From Bacillota bacterium (lineage in GTDB: Bacteria > Bacillota > Clostridia > Oscillospirales > Oscillospiraceae): 63,120 bases of DNA. The first letter of the stretch is position 1, and every line of letters begins with the position of its first letter. The notes beneath the pieces are model-generated. The model ran no database searches and was not told the DNA's origin. It saw only the letters and a list, made by a program, of their open reading frames with translations. The translations under genes were made by a program, and so were the position numbers. This document shows positions 25,195-33,301 of this stretch, in pieces. The DNA is taken from positions 2,370 through 65,489 of the forward strand of contig JAUNCL010000013.1 of assembly GCA_030535235.1 (NCBI GenBank), read 5' to 3'.

Positions 25195-26070
25195 TTATTT
25201 TTCTGTCTCCTCATAGTGGTGAATCAGAGCCTGGGTCCCCAGGTCCCCATATCCCGCCGCCTCCAGGCCCCTGTAATTCTCCAGGACCCGGGCCAGAATG
25301 TCCAGGGTGAGTCCGCTGTATCCGGCCTCCTCCAGGGCCAGACCCATGTCCTTGACAAAGTGCTTCAGGAAGAATCCGGGGGCCAGATCCCCCGCCACGA
25401 TCTTCTCCCCAAAGGCGTCCAGCTGCTTGCTGCCGGCAGCGCCGGTGGCAAGGGACTGAATCAGCACATGGGGGGCCAGGCCCTTGGCCCGGGCATAGGT
25501 CAGAGCCTCGCAGACCCCGGACAGGGTCCCGGCAATCATGATCTGGTTGGCCAGCTTGGCGTGCTGGCCGCAGCCGGCCCGCCCCTGGTGATTGATGTTG
25601 GTCCCCATGGCCCGGAACAGGGGCAGGCAGGCCTCATAATCCTCTTTCTCGCCCCCCACCAGGATGGACAGGGTGCCCGCCCGGGCGCCGGTATCCCCTC
25701 CGGTCACCGGGGCGTCCAGGACCCGGAAGCCCCTCTTGGTCCCCTCCTCATAGAGCCGCTCCGCCAAGGAGGGGCTGGTGGTGGTCATGTCAATCAGGTA
25801 CCCGCCGGGTTCTGCCCGGTCCAGGATATGGCCGGGGGCGAAATAGACCTCCTCCACATCCCTGGGATAGCCTACCATGGTGATCACAGCCTCACAGCCC
25901 CGGACGCAGTCGCCGATGGTCTCGTGGAAGACCGCTCCATCCCGAATGACCTCCTCCACCTTGGTCCGATTCCGGGCGTAGATGTGCAGCTCAAACCCAG
26001 CCTTCATCAGGTTCCGGACCATGCCGCTGCCCATGATCCCCACGCCGATCCACGCGATCTTTTTCATCAT
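25195..26070 (-). CDS. Beta-hydroxyacid dehydrogenase (HIBADH/GarR family)
   Basis: A 291-residue NAD(P)-dependent dehydrogenase. The Rossmann motif GVGIMGSGM is near residue 8, the substrate loop DAPVTGGDTGA near 117, and the catalytic lysine sits in GCGQHAKLANQIM near 165. Family members oxidise 3-hydroxyisobutyrate or reduce tartronate semialdehyde; the substrate here cannot be told. Two ATG codons lie side by side at 26068 and 26065, with GAAGGGGG upstream; I use the first. Confidence 0.88.
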   Translation of the reverse strand: MMKKIAWIGVGIMGSGMVRNLMKAGFELHIYARNRTKVEEVIRDGAVFHETIGDCVRGCEAVITMVGYPRDVEEVYFAPGHILDRAEPGGYLIDMTTTSPSLAERLYEEGTKRGFRVLDAPVTGGDTGARAGTLSILVGGEKEDYEACLPLFRAMGTNINHQGRAGCGQHAKLANQIMIAGTLSGVCEALTYARAKGLAPHVLIQSLATGAAGSKQLDAFGEKIVAGDLAPGFFLKHFVKDMGLALEEAGYSGLTLDILARVLENYRGLEAAGYGDLGTQALIHHYEETEK

Positions 26071-26122
26071 AGTTCCCCCTTCTGTTTTTTTCTTCATTGT
26101 ACCATGTCACCCTTCCCCTGAA

Positions 26123-26157
26123 AAGAGAAAAAAGGACGGGAGCGATCCCGTCCTTTC
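26123..26157 (-). terminator. Terminator after the Big2-domain gene
   Basis: AGGACGGGA and TCCCGTCCT (within 26131-26155) form a hairpin with a short loop; the minus-strand tail is TTTTTTCTCTTTT. Confidence 0.85.
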
Positions 26158-26163
26158 TTGAAA

Positions 26164-27456
26164 TTATTCTGTTGCAGGGCTCTCCCCGGTAATGTTGCTG
26201 TCCAGTTCGCCGGCATCGCCGCCGCCCTCGGTCTCATCGCTGCCGGTGGCGCCGCCGGTGTTGGTGCCAGTGCTGCCGGAGCTACTGCCCGTGCTCCCTG
26301 TGCCGTCGTCATCCGGCTGGACCGCGCCCTCCTCGGGTTCTGTCCCTGTGGACTGGGTCCCGTCGTGATTGCTGTTGTTGGGGTTCTCCACCACGGTGAC
26401 CACGATCTCCGCCGTCTTCTCGCCGGCAGAGGCCTTGATGATGGCGGTGCCCACATCCCGGCCGGTGATGACGCCGTTCTTATCCACCAGGGCCACCGAG
26501 GAGTCACTGCTGCTCCAGGTGATCTTGGCGGGACTCATGTTGTCCGACTCCATCTGGACGGTGGCCTGGACAGTGTAGCTATCGCCGGACTTGATCTCCA
26601 CGGTCTCCTGGTCCAGCTTGATGCCCACCACACCGGGGGCTACGTCCACCACCATCACGGTTTTCTGGAGAGTCTCCCCATTGACCGTGGCGGCAATGGT
26701 GACAGAACCCTCGTTTTTGGCGGTAAGGGTGCAGGTCTTGCCGTTTCCATCCACAGAGATCACATTGGGATCGCTGCAGCCCCAGGTGATCTCGTACTCC
26801 TCCGTTTCAGACAGGCCCTTGATGCTGGCCGTGGTGGTCTCGTCCACTACGATGGTCTGGGAGGCCAGCTCGATCTCGTAATCACTGCCGCTGCCGCCGC
26901 CCAGGAAGGACTTGACGATCAGGGCGGCCAGAATGATAAGGACCAGGCCCAGCACAATGGGGACCAGCTGAATATTCTTCTTCCGCTTTTGAGGTGCGCC
27001 TCTCCGGCTGTCAGAGGGCCGACGGCCCGAGGAGGAACCGCTTCGGCCGCCGCTCCGGGACCGGTTGTCGTAGGAGGACCGGCGGTCGGAACTGCCCCGG
27101 CTGCTGTTCCGGGAGGAGGAGGGCCGGCTGCTGCCGCCGCTGCGGGAGCTGCCGCCGGACTTTCTCCGGGCGCTGCTGCGGTCGTCCCAGTTGGGGGCGG
27201 TGCGCTCCCAGTCCTGCCGGTCGAAGTCATCGTAATAGCCCCGGCTCCGGGTGCTGTAGCGGTCCTGGGAGCGGTAGTCCCGGCTGTAGCCCCGGTCGTA
27301 ATCCCGGTCATAGCTGCTGTAGCCCCGGTCGTAGTCTCTGTAACTCCGGTCATAGTCCCGGCCGCCGTAGTCCCGGCTGCTGGAAGAGCGGCGGTCGGTG
27401 CTCCGGGACCCGCCCCGGGAGGAACGGCTGTAATCGTCAAATTCGTCATATCTCAT
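26164..27456 (-). CDS. Membrane protein with two Big2 domains and Arg/Asp/Tyr/Ser-rich N-terminus
   Basis: A 430-residue protein. Residues 1-150 are low complexity, with repeats of the RDYDRGYS type followed by Ser/Arg-rich sequence. One transmembrane helix follows (about 160-182, VPIVLGLVLIILAALIV) behind a KRKK stop. The outer part holds two bacterial Ig-like (Big2) domains (about 190-270 and 275-360: TWGCSDPNVISVDGNGK, TWSSSDSSVALVDKNGV), then an acidic Ser/Thr/Gly-rich tail. By the charge rule the repetitive part is cytoplasmic and the Ig domains outside. Role unknown; surface adhesion or envelope structure is plausible. Confidence 0.85.
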   Translation of the reverse strand: MRYDEFDDYSRSSRGGSRSTDRRSSSSRDYGGRDYDRSYRDYDRGYSSYDRDYDRGYSRDYRSQDRYSTRSRGYYDDFDRQDWERTAPNWDDRSSARRKSGGSSRSGGSSRPSSSRNSSRGSSDRRSSYDNRSRSGGRSGSSSGRRPSDSRRGAPQKRKKNIQLVPIVLGLVLIILAALIVKSFLGGGSGSDYEIELASQTIVVDETTTASIKGLSETEEYEITWGCSDPNVISVDGNGKTCTLTAKNEGSVTIAATVNGETLQKTVMVVDVAPGVVGIKLDQETVEIKSGDSYTVQATVQMESDNMSPAKITWSSSDSSVALVDKNGVITGRDVGTAIIKASAGEKTAEIVVTVVENPNNSNHDGTQSTGTEPEEGAVQPDDDGTGSTGSSSGSTGTNTGGATGSDETEGGGDAGELDSNITGESPATE

Positions 27457-27627
27457 GAGAAAAATCATCCTCCTGACCTTTGTGTAAAGGGAATGGCAGT
27501 ACGCTTTTTCTGCGATTTTACATATTTCAAATCATTATAGCATATCTCTTTCCCCATGAAAACACCCAATTTGTAAAGATTCTGCAAAAATTTGTCACCC
27601 TTCTTGGGCGCTTTTCCTCCCTTTTAC

Positions 27628-27665
27628 GCAAAAACAGCCCAAAGCCTCCAGGGGCTTCAGGCTGT
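27628..27665 (-). terminator. Terminator after the amino-acid ABC operon
   Basis: ACAGCC (27634-27639) and GGCTGT (27660-27665) enclose an inner AGCC/GGCT pairing; on the minus strand the hairpin ends in TTTTTGCG. Confidence 0.78.
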
Positions 27666-27694
27666 CTGTTTTACAAACCAAATGGGCGGCTGGC

Positions 27695-28462
27695 TCAGCC
27701 GCTGAACTTATCCAGGAACTGCCGGGTGCGGGGGTGCTTGGGGTTGCCAAAGACCTCGGAGGGGGGACCCTCCTCCACCACCACGCCCCCGTCCATGAAC
27801 ATGACCTGGTCGGCCACATCCCGGGCGAACTCCATCTCGTGGGTGACGATGATCATGGTGGTGTGCTGGTCGGCCAGCCCACGGATGACCTTCAGCACCT
27901 CCCCGGTGAGTTCGGGATCCAGGGCGGAGGTGGGCTCGTCAAAGCAGAGGATGTCCGGCTTCATGGCCAGGGCCCGGGCAATGGCCACCCGCTGCTTCTG
28001 ACCGCCGGAGAGCTGATGGGGATAGTTACCCATGCGGTCGCTGAGGCCCATCATTGCCAGGAGTTGCTCCCCCTCCTTGCGGATGTCCTCCACCTTTTCG
28101 CCGGTCTTCTCGCTCTTGGCCATGAGCTCCCGGGCCAGGGTGACGTTCTCCAGGGCGGTATACTGGGGGAAGAGGTTAAAGTCCTGGAAAACCAGACCGA
28201 AGTGGAGCCGCTTCCGGCGGATCTCGCTCTCCTTCCGGGTCGCCGGGTCCGCCGCGTCGAAGAGGACCTCCCCCTTGACGGAGATGGTGCCGGTGTCCGG
28301 GGTCTCCAGGAAGTTCAGGCACCGCAGCAGGGTGGTCTTGCCGCTGCCGGAGGAGCCGATGATGGCCAAGACCTGACCCTCCTCCAGGGAGAAGCTGATA
28401 TCCTCCAGCACCCGGGTGGCGCCGAAATGCTTTTCAATGTGCTGTGCTTCTAAAATAGCCAT
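27695..28462 (-). CDS. Polar amino-acid ABC transporter ATPase
   Basis: A 255-residue ATP-binding subunit of the GlnQ/HisP type. It has Walker A GSSGSGKTT (near 36), Q-loop VFQDFNLFP (near 92), signature LSGGQKQR (near 151), Walker B LCFDEPTSALDP (near 171) and switch His in VTHEM. It is last in a binding protein-permease-ATPase operon, 12 nt after the permease. Confidence 0.94.
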   Translation of the reverse strand: MAILEAQHIEKHFGATRVLEDISFSLEEGQVLAIIGSSGSGKTTLLRCLNFLETPDTGTISVKGEVLFDAADPATRKESEIRRKRLHFGLVFQDFNLFPQYTALENVTLARELMAKSEKTGEKVEDIRKEGEQLLAMMGLSDRMGNYPHQLSGGQKQRVAIARALAMKPDILCFDEPTSALDPELTGEVLKVIRGLADQHTTMIIVTHEMEFARDVADQVMFMDGGVVVEEGPPSEVFGNPKHPRTRQFLDKFSG

Positions 28463-28474
28463 AGGGACGCCTCC

Positions 28475-29128
28475 TTAGCGGAAGTAGTCGAGCTTACGCT
28501 CGAGGAAGTTGAAGAAGATGGTGAGGATGCCCACAAAGAGCAGGTAGAACACGCCGGTGTAGAACAGGGGCCACACCAGACCGCTGGACTTCATGAAGGA
28601 GTAGCCGGTGAAGGTCAGCTCGTAGACGGCGATGATCCGGGCCAGGGAGGTGTCCTTGACCAGGGTGATGATCTCGTTGGACATGGGCGGGAGGATACGC
28701 TTGATCATCTGCATGAGGGTGATCTTGAAGAAGATCTGGCTCTTGGTCATGCCCAGGACCTGACCGGCCTCCCGCTGGCCCACGGGGACGCTCTGGATGC
28801 CGCCGCGATAGATCACGGAGAAATAGCAGGCGTAGTTCAGGGAAAAGGCCACCACCGTGGCCATCATGCGTCCCGTGTCGCCGCTGGGCCAGATGTTATG
28901 GCCGATGATGCCGGGGATGTAGAAGAAGCCGATGAGCTGGAGCATCAGGGGGGTGCCGCGGACGATCCAGACCAGGGTATTACACAGCCAGCGGACGGGC
29001 GTAAATTTGGTCATGGTGCCGAAGGCGATCAGCAGACCCAGAGGCAGGGCGAAGAGCAGGGTCAGAAAAAAGATTTGAACCGTGCTGCCCAGGCCGGTGA
29101 GCAGGGTTTGTGTTACGTTCCAAAGCAT
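28475..29128 (-). CDS. Polar amino-acid ABC transporter permease
   Basis: A 217-residue inner-membrane permease of the His/Glu/Gln family, with about five membrane helices. The ATPase-coupling EAA motif is REAGQVLGMTKSQIFFKI (near 135). IVRGTPLMLQL near 57 is the family's hallmark N-terminal motif. Only one permease gene is present, so it probably acts as a homodimer. Confidence 0.93.
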   Translation of the reverse strand: MLWNVTQTLLTGLGSTVQIFFLTLLFALPLGLLIAFGTMTKFTPVRWLCNTLVWIVRGTPLMLQLIGFFYIPGIIGHNIWPSGDTGRMMATVVAFSLNYACYFSVIYRGGIQSVPVGQREAGQVLGMTKSQIFFKITLMQMIKRILPPMSNEIITLVKDTSLARIIAVYELTFTGYSFMKSSGLVWPLFYTGVFYLLFVGILTIFFNFLERKLDYFR

Positions 29129-29161
29129 GGAAAAAACTCCTCTGTCTTTCTATAAGCCGCC

Positions 29162-29197
29162 CAAAGGCAGAGAGCGAGACCGCCCTCTGCCTTTGGA
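29162..29197. other. Intercistronic hairpin between binding protein and permease
   Basis: Perfect 12-bp arms CCAAAGGCAGAG (29162-29173) and CTCTGCCTTTGG (29186-29197) without a T-run. Such hairpins often protect the upstream message or reduce read-through so that binding protein outnumbers permease; that role is inferred. Confidence 0.65.
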
Positions 29198-29231
29198 GTT
29201 TATTTGGATTTGGATTGGAAAGGGATTTCCA

Positions 29232-30047
29232 TTAGCCGGGCAGAACCACGACCTGTGCGTTGTTGCAGTATGCGTTGGTGCAGTTCATGGCTGCGGTGAC
29301 CTCAGCGGTCAGAGTCATGCCGTTCCAGACCACGTCGATGTTCTTGGAATCCAGCTCCATGATCTTGTTGTCCCAGTCGATCTCCACAAACTGGATCTCC
29401 ACGCCCAGCTTCTCAGCCACCAGACGGGCCATGTCAGCGTCGAAGCCGATCCACTCGTCGCTGCCCTCTTCCTTGTAGTCCATGGGGGCGAAGTCAGTGA
29501 TACCCACAACCAGAGTGCCCTTGTCCTGGATATAAGCCACGTCGCCGTCAGCGGCGATCTCAGGCTCGGCAACCTCGGGCTGCTCCACCAGAGCGGCGCC
29601 GACCTTGTAGGTCTCGGCGATGGTCTGCATGGTGCCGTCAGCATAAGCGGCGGACATGACCCAGTTGATATAGTCGGTCAGGTCGGAATCCTGGCGGCAG
29701 CCTGCGCCGTACTCCTCGGTGGTCAGCTCGTCGCCGGTGACCAGGTCGGGATAGCTGGTGCCCTCGCCGATCATGGCGTCGGCCATCAGCAGGTCGATGA
29801 TGGCGGCGTCGGAGGTGCCAGAGGCCACTTCCATCAGGGCATCTGCCTGGGAGGCCACGGAGTTGTACTCGAAGCCCTGCTCAGCGGCCACAGCCTCACC
29901 GGCGGAGCCGGCTTCCACGGCGTAGACCAGAGCAGCCTCTTCGCCGCCGTCTTCGGTGGGTTCAGGGGTTTCACCGCCGCCGCAGCCGGCCAGCAGGGAG
30001 CAGCCCATAGCGGCTGCCAGGAACAGTGCAAGATACTTCTTTTTCAT
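29232..30047 (-). CDS. Amino-acid-binding lipoprotein, circularly permuted
   Basis: A 271-residue extracellular binding protein with a lipoprotein signal (LLAGC, Cys22) and the amino-acid (SBP family 3) fold in a swapped order. Residues 40-155 (YAVEAGSAGEAVAAEQGF to AETYKVGAALVEQ) correspond to the second half of ordinary family-3 proteins, including their usual C-terminus. Residues 175-270 (KGTLVVGITDFAPMDYKE, GFDADMARLVAEKLGV, WDNKIMELDSKNIDVVWNGM) correspond to the first half. A linker (about 156-174) joins the old ends, and the new ends fall at the hinge. It heads a permease-ATPase operon and has a good promoter, so it is probably a working transporter subunit. Confidence 0.88.
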   Translation of the reverse strand: MKKKYLALFLAAAMGCSLLAGCGGGETPEPTEDGGEEAALVYAVEAGSAGEAVAAEQGFEYNSVASQADALMEVASGTSDAAIIDLLMADAMIGEGTSYPDLVTGDELTTEEYGAGCRQDSDLTDYINWVMSAAYADGTMQTIAETYKVGAALVEQPEVAEPEIAADGDVAYIQDKGTLVVGITDFAPMDYKEEGSDEWIGFDADMARLVAEKLGVEIQFVEIDWDNKIMELDSKNIDVVWNGMTLTAEVTAAMNCTNAYCNNAQVVVLPG

Positions 30048-30109
30048 GGTTTAACGCTCCTATCATAAGATTTGGTTTGTTTAACACTCTATTGTAGTAA
30101 AGCACTAAC

Positions 30110-30137
30110 ATAATACCACAACAAGGCAGGATTGCAA
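30110..30137 (-). promoter_or_regulatory. Promoter for the amino-acid ABC operon
   Basis: Minus strand: TTGCAA (30132-30137), 16 nt, TATTAT (30110-30115), about 60 nt before the binding-protein start. Confidence 0.65.
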
Positions 30138-30224
30138 CCCCTTTTTTCAAAAATTTTACGAAACCTTGATTTTCGTCAAAACAACGAAAGCGCCCGGGCT
30201 GCCGGACGCTTTCGCGCTTCCTTT

Positions 30225-31508
30225 TCATTTTGAATCCACATTGGGCACTGCCGCCGTCAGCTCCACCGGCAGAGGCGCCGGGACAGACTGGACCGCGTCG
30301 CCGCTGGCATCCTCCAGGTCCCCAAGGCCGCACAGGAACTTCCCAAAATCGGACCCCCAGGCCCACAGGGTCCCATCGGTCTTGGCCGCCAGGGTGGTAT
30401 AGCTCCCCGCCGACACCAGGGCCGCGTCCTCCATGACCTGAACCGGCTGGGCCTGGAACCGCATCTCGTCCTCCCCTGCCAGGGGCTGCCCGGTCCCGAG
30501 CTGGTTGAATCGGTCAAAGCCCCAGGTCCACAGGGTCCCATCGGTCTTGATGGCCGCCATGTGCATGGAGCCGGCGGTGATCCGGGCCACGTCTTCCATC
30601 ACTTGGACGGGTTCCCACCGTTCCCGGGTATCTCCGGTCCCCAACTGGCCATACTCGTTATCTCCCTAGGTCCACAGGGTTCCGTCGGTCTTCAGAGCGG
30701 CGGAGCAGGACAGACCGGCGCAGATGGCCGCCACATCGGTCATCACCTGAACCGGGATGTCCCGATTGGTCGTGTCCCCGACGCCCAGCTCTCCTCTGCC
30801 GTTGTTGCCGCAGGCCCACAGGGTCCCGTCGGTTTTCAGGATCAGGGTGTGATAGTCCCCGCAGGCCACCGCCTGCACATCCTCCATGACCTGGACGGGG
30901 CTCTTCCGGCAGGCTCCCCCGACTTTGTTCTTCTGGTCCTTCCCATGGCCAACGCCCAACTGGCCGTGGTCATTATCCCCCCACATCCAAAGGGTTCCGT
31001 CCTCTTTGACGGCCGCAGTAAAATAGGCCCCGGCGGACACCGACGCCACGTCTGCCATGATCTGGATGGAAACGGACTGGTAGGGAGTGACGAACCGGTG
31101 GGGAATGATAAAGGTCCAGTACCAGATCACATCCTTGTCGTTGACCCGTTTCTGGCCCACCTGACCGTTGTCGTTGCAGCCCCAGGTCCACAAGGTGCCG
31201 TCCTCCTTGACAGCCGCCCCGTGAAAATCGCCCAGAGCCACGGACCGGACCTCCTCCAGGATGGGGGCAGGGCTGGTTTGATACAAAGTCCCATACGAGT
31301 CCTCATGGTCCCCCTGGTTGTCGTTGCCCAACTGCCCGTAGCTGTTGCAGCCCCAGGTCCACAGGGTCCCATTGTCATCCACCACTGCGGCACAGACGCC
31401 GCTGACGCCCAGAGCTTCGGCCTGGGCTGTCTCAACGGCCCCCGCCGGGGTGGCCAGAGCCAAAGCCAGGAGCAGGGTCAAAATCCAAGGTAACACTCTC
31501 TTTTTCAT
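30225..31508 (-). pseudogene. Exported RCC1-repeat protein gene with in-frame TAG
   Basis: Reading from 31508, a signal peptide (MKKRVLPWILTLLLALALA) is followed by repeats built on DGTLWTWGxNxxGQLG, the beta-propeller blade of RCC1-like proteins. After 280 residues the frame meets TAG at 30666-30668, exactly where the repeat expects Trp (LWT-stop-GDNEYGQLG), a single TGG-to-TAG change. The same frame then continues open for another 140 or so codons with further repeats to 30225. The two halves are therefore one gene broken by a nonsense codon. The first half could still be secreted. The role of bacterial RCC1-like proteins is largely unknown. Confidence 0.88.
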
Positions 31509-31537
31509 AGCGCTTGCCTCCTTTTGATCCGATCAAC

Positions 31538-31591
31538 AAAAAAGGCGCCGCCCATCCTGTGGGCCAGTGGTCCAGGGGTGTACGGTGCCTT
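31538..31591 (-). terminator. Hairpin with T-run upstream of the RCC1-repeat gene
   Basis: AAGGCGCCG (31542-31550) pairs with CGGTGCCTT (31583-31591) with one mismatch; on the minus strand it ends in TTTTTTG. It could end the transcript of the gene at 31649-32815, or act as an attenuator for the RCC1 gene whose candidate promoter lies just before it. Confidence 0.65.
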
Positions 31592-31606
31592 TCTCTTTTT
31601 TATCTT

Positions 31607-31635
31607 ATTTTAACAGATTATTATTCTATTGACAA
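31607..31635 (-). promoter_or_regulatory. Possible promoter for the RCC1-repeat gene
   Basis: Minus strand: TTGTCA (31630-31635), 17 nt, TAAAAT (31607-31612). The stretch is A+T-rich, so a chance match is possible. Confidence 0.5.
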
Positions 31636-31648
31636 GTTGTTTTTTCAT

Positions 31649-32815
31649 TTAATACTTCGTCTCCCGGGGGACCAGGAAGGTGTCACCGTCCTGGGCAAGC
31701 TGGTTCAGAACCCCCGCCAGGATGGGGCCGGAGGTGCGGGTGTCCAGCAGGACCCGGCCGCCCTTCTGCCCTTCTCCGTAGTCCACGATGCTCTCGTAGA
31801 TCTGGGTCGAGGTGCCGCCGGACTTGGTCGTCAGGCCCGGAGACCAGCATAGATACCCGGCGTCGGCCAGCTCCTTGTCGCCGGCGAGGACGAACCAGGT
31901 CTCCTGACGGAGGATCCGGGTCAGAAGGGCCTGCCCCTCCCGGACGCTCCGGAGCCGCTCCTCTGCCGTCTCCCCGGCAGGGATCAGCCCGACTTTATGT
32001 CCCCGGCCGGCGGCCTGGCGGATCTGGTCCCCGGAGGCGGCCAGAGTGTCCGCCGGGAAGAAGACCACCGCCGAGGCATTCACATTGGCCAGGGCGTTGA
32101 GGGCGGCGGTGATGTCCGTCCCCTGGGCGGCCCGCAGGCCCAGGTACAAAGAGAACTTGGGGGCATTCTCCTCCACCACGTTGGGCTCCTCCACCTGGGG
32201 GGGCGTAACGGGAGTGGTTGGGGTAGTAGGGGTAGGGGGCGTGTTCGTATTGTTGTTATTCGTATTTCCGTTTTGGCCGTAATAGCTGTTATACCGGCCG
32301 CGCATCATGGAGGCAGCCGAGCTGATGAAAAGGGAATCGCTGAGCACGGCGCTGCCGTCCTTGATCCGCAGAAGGGGGCCGTAGTCGGTGGTATAGAAGG
32401 AGTAGGTCAGGCCGAAATAGCGGCAGATGGCATAGGCCGGGACGTAATAGACGCCATTCTGCCAGACCACCCGACCGGGGACCGGCGGGTCGCCGCCGGT
32501 GGCGGTGGCCGTCCCGTTGATCAGGTCAAAGGTCATGGTCTTGCCCGAGAGGTTGTAGAAGATCAGGCTCTCGTTGTTGTCGGTAAAGCCGTAGTACACG
32601 CCGAAGTTGATCCCCGTGACCCGGTTATTGAAGGCAGTCACCGGCACATAGACCCAGCCGCTGTGCTGAATGGGGGTGGTCTGGGCGGATTGGGGGGCTA
32701 ACGTATCGTTGAGGGAGAGGAAGAACAGGCTGTTGGAGGCCGAGGAGGGCACCACCATCAAAGACAAAATCAGGCCGACGGCACAGGCCAGCGCCAGGAG
32801 TTTTTTCTTCATCAT
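31649..32815 (-). CDS. Exported protein with deacetylase-like C-terminal domain
   Basis: A 388-residue secreted protein. A signal peptide (about 1-27) is followed by a domain (about 30-165) resembling the copper amine oxidase N-terminal-like fold of Clostridial surface proteins (WVYVPVTAFNNRVTG, VVWQNGVYYVPAYAICRYFGLTYS). A Thr/Pro/Asn-rich linker (about 180-212) leads to a C-terminal domain (about 225-388) with the layout of a polysaccharide deacetylase barrel (AVVFFPADTLAASGDQIRQA, GHKVGLI). The usual FDDGP and HxxxH metal motifs are not visible, so it may be catalytically inactive. Confidence 0.72.
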   Translation of the reverse strand: MMKKKLLALACAVGLILSLMVVPSSASNSLFFLSLNDTLAPQSAQTTPIQHSGWVYVPVTAFNNRVTGINFGVYYGFTDNNESLIFYNLSGKTMTFDLINGTATATGGDPPVPGRVVWQNGVYYVPAYAICRYFGLTYSFYTTDYGPLLRIKDGSAVLSDSLFISSAASMMRGRYNSYYGQNGNTNNNNTNTPPTPTTPTTPVTPPQVEEPNVVEENAPKFSLYLGLRAAQGTDITAALNALANVNASAVVFFPADTLAASGDQIRQAAGRGHKVGLIPAGETAEERLRSVREGQALLTRILRQETWFVLAGDKELADAGYLCWSPGLTTKSGGTSTQIYESIVDYGEGQKGGRVLLDTRTSGPILAGVLNQLAQDGDTFLVPRETKY

Positions 32816-32880
32816 GCTCTCTCCTTTCCCGGAATTTTCTTGCTTCCTATGATTTTATCATGAAACGGCCCGGTTTTCAA

Positions 32881-32909
32881 TTGCAATTCTCTCCCGCGTC
32901 CGGTATCAT
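32881..32909 (+). promoter_or_regulatory. Promoter for the ArsC-like/DUF523 pair
   Basis: TTGCAA (32881-32886), 17 nt, TATCAT (32904-32909), 41 nt before the ATG. Confidence 0.65.
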
Positions 32910-32950
32910 AATAAGGTATCATTCGATCCCACACATAGGAGGTCAAAGCT

Positions 32951-33301
32951 ATGTTATTTGTATGCTATCCCCGCTGCTCCACCTGCAAGAAGGCCCAGAA
33001 GTGGCTGGATGAGAACCAGGTGGACTACACCTTTCGGGACATCAAGGAGGACAACCCCACCCTGGAGGAGCTGAAAGCCTGGCACGAAAAAAGCGGTCTG
33101 CCCCTGAAAAAATTCTTCAACACCAGCGGGCAGCTCTACCGCTCCATGGAGCTGTCCAAAAAGCTCCCCGCCATGCCGGAGGAGGAGCAGTTTGCCCTGT
33201 TGGCCTCCGACGGTCTGCTGGTGAAGCGGCCCCTGGTCATCACCGATGACAAGGTCCTGGTGGGCTTCAAGGAAGCCGACTGGGCCGAGACCCTGAAGTA
33301 A
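32951..33301 (+). CDS. ArsC/Spx-family thioredoxin-fold protein
   Basis: A 116-residue protein of the arsenate reductase/YffB/Spx family. The redox motif is CSTCKKAQKWLDE, with Cys9 and Cys12, and the C-terminal LLVKRPLVITDDKVLVGF matches the family's Lys-Arg-Pro substrate motif. No other arsenic genes are near, so an arsenate function is doubtful; a general thiol role is as likely. AGGAGG precedes the ATG, and it sits 12 nt before the DUF523 gene. Confidence 0.85.
   Translation: MLFVCYPRCSTCKKAQKWLDENQVDYTFRDIKEDNPTLEELKAWHEKSGLPLKKFFNTSGQLYRSMELSKKLPAMPEEEQFALLASDGLLVKRPLVITDDKVLVGFKEADWAETLK

Follow-up and report, generated by a model that had tools for sequence, protein, structure and literature searches.

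A permuted binding protein precedes an importer permease and ATPase

The window, the whole 63,120-nucleotide stretch of DNA analysed here, encodes a solute-binding lipoprotein (SBP), the window protein, with an ABC permease and an ABC ATPase downstream on the same strand. The features are listed below in the order of transcription, with residue numbers of the window protein.

30110..30137, reverse strand: promoter-like site upstream of the SBP gene, TTGCAA-16-TATTAT with TG before the second hexamer; hardly above chance
29232..30047, reverse strand: circularly permuted family-3 SBP, 271 aa, class A, order D2 - D1b - linker - D1a; from profile and PDB-chain matches
29982..30047, reverse strand: signal peptide and lipobox (LAG-C), residues 1-22; from the sequence
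29724..29930, reverse strand: D2 lobe, residues 40-108, approximately GlnH positions 110-180, with conserved Asp85 (GlnH D157); from alignment
29598..29723, reverse strand: D1b, residues 109-150, C-terminal in lobe 1 of canonical chains, with Cys117; from alignment
29532..29597, reverse strand: linker, residues 151-172, between what were the C- and N-termini of lobe 1
29235..29531, reverse strand: D1a, residues 173-271, N-terminal in lobe 1 of canonical chains, stopping just past the first hinge strand; from alignment
28475..29128, reverse strand: amino-acid-type ABC permease, BPD_transp_1; TIGR01726 HEQRo_perm_3TM at 57.8 bits (cut-off 42.2)
27695..28462, reverse strand: ABC ATPase; best NCBIfam match L-cystine TcyN, 312.6 of 406 bits, under its cut-off

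The genes are separated by 103 nt (SBP to permease) and 12 nt (permease to ATPase), and the TIGR01726 domain is that of a polar amino acid importer (HEQRo) permease. The first-pass annotation had described signal, lipobox, promoter, permease and ATPase as all in place. This is borne out for the lipobox (LAGC, residues 19-22) and the downstream genes but not for the promoter, as two sigma-70-like sites occur within 3 kb, the listed one among them, against a shuffled mean of 1.0. An RCC1-repeat-like ORF (30225-31508, reverse strand) adjoins the SBP gene and is split by one in-frame stop after GTLWT; its parts, 30666-31508 and 30225-30644, share a frame and could be a pseudogene, a sequencing error or two proteins.

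Using phmmer against PDB chains, we found that residues 173-269 align with residues 6-102 of 6svf_A (i-Evalue 7.1e-14), while residues 41-144 align with residues 120-223 of the same chain (6.8e-6). With its C-terminal part thus aligned to the beginning of 6svf_A, and its N-terminal part to the end, the window protein has the order D2 - D1b - linker - D1a. Three more PDB-chain alignments agree with the swapped halves, and a 46-row profile of relatives (A1) recovers the same two stretches at 1.5e-21 and 7e-11. The protein is of family 3: Pfam PF00497 (SBP_bac_3) scores 86.4 bits against a cut-off of 26.4 in two stretches, the best placing residues 180-268 on profile positions 2-89 of 132, and its best profile matches are family-3 models. 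The best 60 of 75 PDB matches comprise SBPs for amino acids or opines together with SBP-like dehydratases or ancestral constructs. Since the colinear D1a-D2-D1b order of SBP_bac_3 is absent, we class the window protein as a permuted variant of the family. No best stretch spans both halves among the best 60 of 75 and the best 60 of 77 PDB matches, so none of the listed matches is a solved structure with the permuted order. Canonical relatives match both halves in the opposite order within one ORF and, together with the phmmer and A1 alignments, bear out the earlier reading of the gene as a family-3 binding protein with swapped halves. Ordinary profile searches hide such a rearrangement, as the best Pfam or NCBIfam stretch is one half and the other appears at most as a second stretch.

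The chain is opened inside lobe 2

Permuted family-3 SBPs fall into three cut classes: A, which includes the window protein; B (L119, L193, L267, L268, L269 and L271), with a deeper cut in D2 that leaves the first D2 strand and helix at the C-terminus; and C (L125, L124, L129 and others), with the order D1b - linker - D1a - D2. The cuts of ten permuted proteins were located on E. coli GlnH (mature numbering) in an alignment that misplaces a few stray tail residues. In class A, the window protein ends at position 96 and resumes lobe 2 near 110-112, with about 14 loop residues gone; L172 is similar, while L206 and L212 have their C-terminus at 97 and pick up lobe 2 only a few residues on, so that class A cuts overall run from 96-97 to about 98-112. 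The cuts lie near 125-131 in L119 and L193 (class B) and near 166-172 in L125, L124, L174 and L180 (class C).

We take the limits of the glutamine-binding protein to be 5-84 and 186-224 for lobe 1, 85-89 and 181-185 for the hinges, and 90-180 for lobe 2. As position 96 lies past the hinge at 85-89, the window cut falls just inside lobe 2 and not exactly at the hinge, where the first-pass annotation had put the new termini. All ten mapped proteins appear to be cut inside lobe 2, and both hinge segments would stay in the chain. Lobe 1, which is discontinuous in the canonical chain, is therefore predicted to be continuous and inserted into lobe 2, presumably within a two-lobed type II fold. A single hinge crossing in classes A and C was also considered and was dropped on the strength of the GlnH alignment.

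The linker had been estimated at about 20 residues and measures 22. Median lengths are 23 (range 7-29), 23 (21-27) and 22 (11-25) in classes A, B and C, and a second class A subfamily of 14 rows has shorter linkers (median 13). Window-like canonical genes have about 7 residues after D1b and a median of 26 between lipobox and D1a, so the linker could combine the former tail with a portion of the former tether.

The permuted order is conserved and under purifying selection

A scan of genome contigs identified 533 stretches that encode relatives. We kept the 80 best full-length matches, a choice by which they were partly picked for the same order, and segment profiles found a permuted-order ORF in all 80. 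Their best-segment identity is 61-76%. Most are metagenome-assembled genomes by title and three are isolates (L017, L030 and L072; 1xD42-87, 0.1xD8-71 and Oscillibacter sp. PC13). Comparison of the window gene with its near relatives L120 (dN 0.080, dS 0.487) and L121 (dN 0.076, dS 0.503) gives a dN/dS of about 0.16, and the gene is under purifying selection. Of 99 related genomes, 11 carry the window-clade protein uninterrupted, over at least about residues 22-269; 9 of these are among the 16 genomes of the window's genus, its own included, and a tenth genome of the genus (G013) has the protein in two pieces on two contigs.

A lipobox pattern is present in 78 of 87 window-clade genes. Among the other nine, LCAC, a lipobox-like sequence, is found in three, and a contig end truncates one. 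Judging by their N-termini, L036, L052, L056, L063 and L065 seem to have an ordinary signal peptide without a lipobox; their titles name groups regarded as Gram-positive.

Canonical-order sisters have the same operon

Genes of canonical order sit in other genera. In 16 such loci (L098-L113), D1a is 62-74% identical to that of the window protein, and 14 have a permease (50-64%) and an ATPase (58-76%) downstream, the exceptions being L099, which stops at a contig end, and L112, which has no permease match. Compared over 208 re-ordered columns, the window protein is 69% identical to its nearest canonical gene and the 36 window-clade rows printed are 65-72% identical to theirs, in a table restricted to three-segment ORFs of at most 420 aa from which near-duplicates were removed by identity thresholds. 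The window D1a is nearest to L189 and L098 (76%) and D2 plus D1b to L191 (65%), L107 and L103 (64% each). Both halves are thus nearest to one canonical subfamily, and ancestry is concordant in the window clade.

No genome among the listed matches from the 99 related genomes has both a window-clade permuted gene and a canonical gene of the same subfamily, which suggests that one form replaced the other; the other listed matches of the carriers are at most 35% identical.

Permutation has probably recurred

We searched overlapping samples of genomes with a profile of the D1b-linker-D1a junction (A2; nine permuted rows, 169 positions), counting full-span matches (from model position ≤13 to ≥165 of 169) that lie in a frame of <420 aa. 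In the sample of the order (295 genomes, E ≤ 1e-10) at least 23 genomes have such a match; the class (291 genomes, E ≤ 1e-20) gave at least 25 and the phylum (299 genomes, E ≤ 1e-25) gave 9. The loci examined, at least one in each of 23/23, 24/25 (all but G700) and 9/9 of these genomes, respectively, each hold a single permuted SBP, a few of them cut at a contig end. Five part-junction loci taken as a control (L213-L216 and L274) are canonical. The sole full-span match in a long frame is L198, a 787-aa tandem SBP protein. A plasmid search matched 443 records, in none of which a single site reached 80% coverage of the query; Pusillibacter faecalis (L248) and Treponema saccharophilum (L249), the two examined, are canonical.

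Segment profiles distinguished, after removal of identical rows, 156 permuted genes (109 A, 6 B and 41 C) and 86 canonical ones, in a sample that is enriched for permuted forms and gives no overall frequency. With all segments placed in canonical order, trees were built from alignments of 204-208 columns. Among the four orders, the 107-row tree calls for 10 changes, the 118-row tree for 14 and the 121-row tree for 19. Well-supported branches force 7, 10 and 10 changes for the canonical label, 6, 7 and 6 for C, 2, 5 and 6 for A, and 2, 2 and 3 for B. Near-duplicates were dropped by identity thresholds in all three trees. The two larger ones also omit L168 (a duplicate of the window), the tandem L198 and ORFs without a D2 match, with a minimum of 130 (118 rows) and 140 (121 rows) filled columns; that of 121 rows further omits the long-branch rows L209, L228, L201 and L203 and the type C row of L067.

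AU tests reject a single clade of all permuted rows (p = 1.3e-10) and of all A (p = 0.0004) on the 118-row tree, and of all C on the 121-row tree (p = 0.00014), for groups whose naming followed inspection of the first tree, and with several rows on long branches. Permutation has probably recurred among family-3 SBPs of these Bacillota some ten times or more, the exact number being uncertain. The window clade is sister to the canonical pair L103 and L111 in all three trees, a grouping that is only fairly supported given its values of 91/66, 88/44 and 96/80.

Permease and ATPase genes accompany most permuted genes

Matches to both the permease and the ATPase of the window lie downstream of 139 of 148 permuted genes with at least 1.1 kb of downstream DNA (A, 103/104; B, 6/6; C, 30/38), a count that may miss diverged permeases; 5 A, 3 C and 9 canonical genes were excluded because the DNA downstream of them was too short. 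The conserved order, the purifying selection and an operon context common to canonical relatives support the earlier suggestion of a natural permutation in an apparently working operon.

Neither match is found downstream of 7 of the 38 class C genes with room. Some class C SBPs are diverged (L104:5359-6516, forward; L131:1064-2035, reverse; L203:2485-3303, forward; L067:6301-7200, forward). No permease match was found just downstream of any of these four, which are possibly solitary or re-employed binding proteins.

The ligand site appears to have changed before the permutation

GlnH R75 and D157 are taken here to be the residues that bind the carboxylate and the amine of the ligand. The position of R75 is Val in the window protein and V, T or M in 87/87 window-clade rows, while that of D157 (Asp85) is Asp in all 87. 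With row groups set by identity to the window, Arg occupies the R75 position in 0/27 window-like, 7/12 intermediate and 46/46 other canonical rows, and in 16/16 other class A, 1/2 class B, and 16/23 and 0/5 class C rows; it is also present in 14/14 rows of the second class A subfamily and in L172 and L186. Since the window-like canonical genes also have no Arg, its loss looks older than the permutation in the window's lineage and appears to concern the choice of ligand. With Val at this position an amino acid is not certain as the ligand, which may be an amine or an amino-acid derivative.

Further hints at the ligand were sought in profiles and RNA elements. NCBIfam matches of the SBP and the ATPase (best 25 of 193 for the ATPase) all fall below their cut-offs. 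Rfam gave no match at the gathering score in window positions 26000-33000, with two weak matches at E of about 0.7, and in 15 of the 80 relative loci a search for riboswitches and T-boxes returned tRNA only. Cys117 and Cys256 are invariant in 87/87 window-clade rows and Cys261 is present in 82/87, compared with 2/27, 17/27 and 16/27 window-like canonical rows, respectively. These cysteines possibly form a disulfide or a metal site. Compensation for the cut by Cys117 was rejected as an explanation, as canonical L103, L111 and L214 have it too.

Origin and alternative explanations

We consider it very probable that the window gene encodes the SBP of a one-permease importer of the polar-amino-acid type and is a natural permutation of the type II family-3 fold, one of a recurrent kind with three cut regions. 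The window protein would most likely fold into the usual two lobes, close on a small amine- or amino-acid-like solute and hand it to the permease, as a canonical family-3 SBP does. Its chain would have been opened inside lobe 2 just past the first hinge strand, with the old ends of lobe 1 joined by the 22-residue linker; lobe 1 would become continuous and inserted into lobe 2, and the lipid anchor would move onto lobe 2. It probably originated in an in-frame duplication, or in a tandem-SBP protein, with both ends trimmed afterwards; events of this kind would have been repeated at cut regions A, B and C, all in lobe 2 where mapped. Tandem duplication with loss of the outer parts, as first proposed for this gene, fits the data but is not proved by them. 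A protein such as that of L198 (1004-3364, reverse strand; an ATPase gene follows it) is a possible natural source of the D1b-linker-D1a junction. One class C protein aligns without interruption, over its residues 87-301, to residues 201-404 of 6h30_A, presumably a tandem pair of GlnPQ domains. Among the loci examined, neither a young intermediate nor a tandem one of the window's own subfamily was found.

An assembly or binning artefact that joined canonical fragments in the wrong order might be suspected where most relatives are metagenome-assembled by title, but the order recurs in 80/80 kept relatives from many studies, three isolates by title among them, and the chance of such an error is negligible. 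Fusion of halves from two different SBP genes, head to tail, is a more serious candidate. Lobe 1 of the window protein is 76% and the rest 65% identical to canonical relatives. Long branches are common among the permuted rows, and in some of these rows the two halves are nearest to discordant canonical genes: the gene that is best by D1a ranks only 76th (L209), 60th (L201), 49th (L228) and 32nd (L203) of 93 by D2 plus D1b. For the window protein, however, it ranks 6th of 93 and belongs to the same subfamily, and it ranks first for L118, L186, L174, L180, L206 and L210 and second for L172; we regard a chimaera as very unlikely. About as unlikely is a protein that has left transport, whether decaying or re-employed as a sensor or scavenger. 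The missing carboxylate Arg and the 7/38 class C genes without a downstream permease and ATPase match would suit it, but the Arg is missing in 27/27 window-like canonical genes too, dN/dS is about 0.16 and 103/104 class A genes keep both permease and ATPase.

The count of about ten events would be inflated if one or a few ancient permutations had been followed by reversion, horizontal transfer or tree error. Short alignments (204-208 columns), long permuted branches, thin canonical sampling near some permuted clades and the naming of groups after the first tree give this some room; it is nevertheless improbable in view of the AU rejections of single clades and the three different cut sites, and reversion would itself count as another permutation. 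Somewhat less improbable, though still unlikely, is that the permutation is an adaptation to surface tethering that moves the anchor away from the ligand contacts. The lipobox pattern in 78/87 window-clade genes would agree with this, but 27/27 window-like canonical genes have the pattern as well, and five permuted members of the window clade seem to have no lipobox. Returning to natural, recurrent permutation, a broader proposal, to which we would give slightly less than even chances, is that family 3 is permutation-prone. There would then be at least ten natural permutations in one phylum, always with lobe 2 opened, lobe 1 closed by a linker of about 22 residues, the discontinuous lobe made continuous and the anchor lobe changed, the outcome being kept by selection on folding, permease docking or tether geometry and not just tolerated.

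Relation to known permuted and tandem binding proteins

To our knowledge, natural circular permutations are known mostly as single old events. The present family combines three cut classes, canonical sisters about 70% identical, intact operons and isolate carriers. It allows a direct test of how a permutation arises and whether it is neutral, and of how much it matters to a binding protein where its lipid anchor sits and whether a lobe is continuous.

A permuted SBP occurring naturally is already known as a kind; new here are a family-3 SBP in permuted order and a lineage with repeated permutation. The one natural example that we found in the literature searched belongs to a type I sugar family, and no permuted family-3 SBP was found in that literature (most subscription journals and bioRxiv lay outside its scope). 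The example is TpMglB-2 (Tp0684) of Treponema pallidum, a permuted glucose-binding lipoprotein termed 'Type Ic / Cluster Bc', for which its authors propose a permuted subclass and a possible advantage in tethering, and for which a chimaera was considered (PMC4990184). It resembles the window protein as a naturally permuted, lipid-anchored SBP of an ABC importer with its gene near those of a permease and an ATPase, and its relatives occur in Gram-positive gut bacteria, like the window's; it differs in its type I (cluster B) sugar fold, in having the first strands of the N lobe at the C-terminus and in a fourth hinge crossing (PMC4990184). The window protein, in contrast, belongs to family 3 (type II), is cut in lobe 2, is predicted to cross the hinge twice and comes from a group with several origins. 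It falls outside the Type Ic / Cluster Bc definition, that is, a type I sugar fold with a permuted N lobe.

Canonical family-3 SBPs (E. coli GlnH, L103 and L111) share with it the profile family, the operon type, the Asp at GlnH D157 and the G-M/I-T motif, but have the D1a-D2-D1b order and the anchor on lobe 1. Tandem SBPs (GlnPQ and L198) share the D1b-linker-D1a junction, with a linker of about 19 residues in L198 by the same measure; the single 787-aa frame of L198 encodes two complete SBPs, whereas permuted proteins have one set of parts and a separate permease. Lobes of an SBP have also been permuted in engineered halves of the Thermotoga maritima ribose-binding protein, which are laboratory-made single lobes of a sugar-binding SBP, unlike the window protein (PMC9815098). 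With their ends on lobe 2, permuted SBPs offer natural templates for biosensors.
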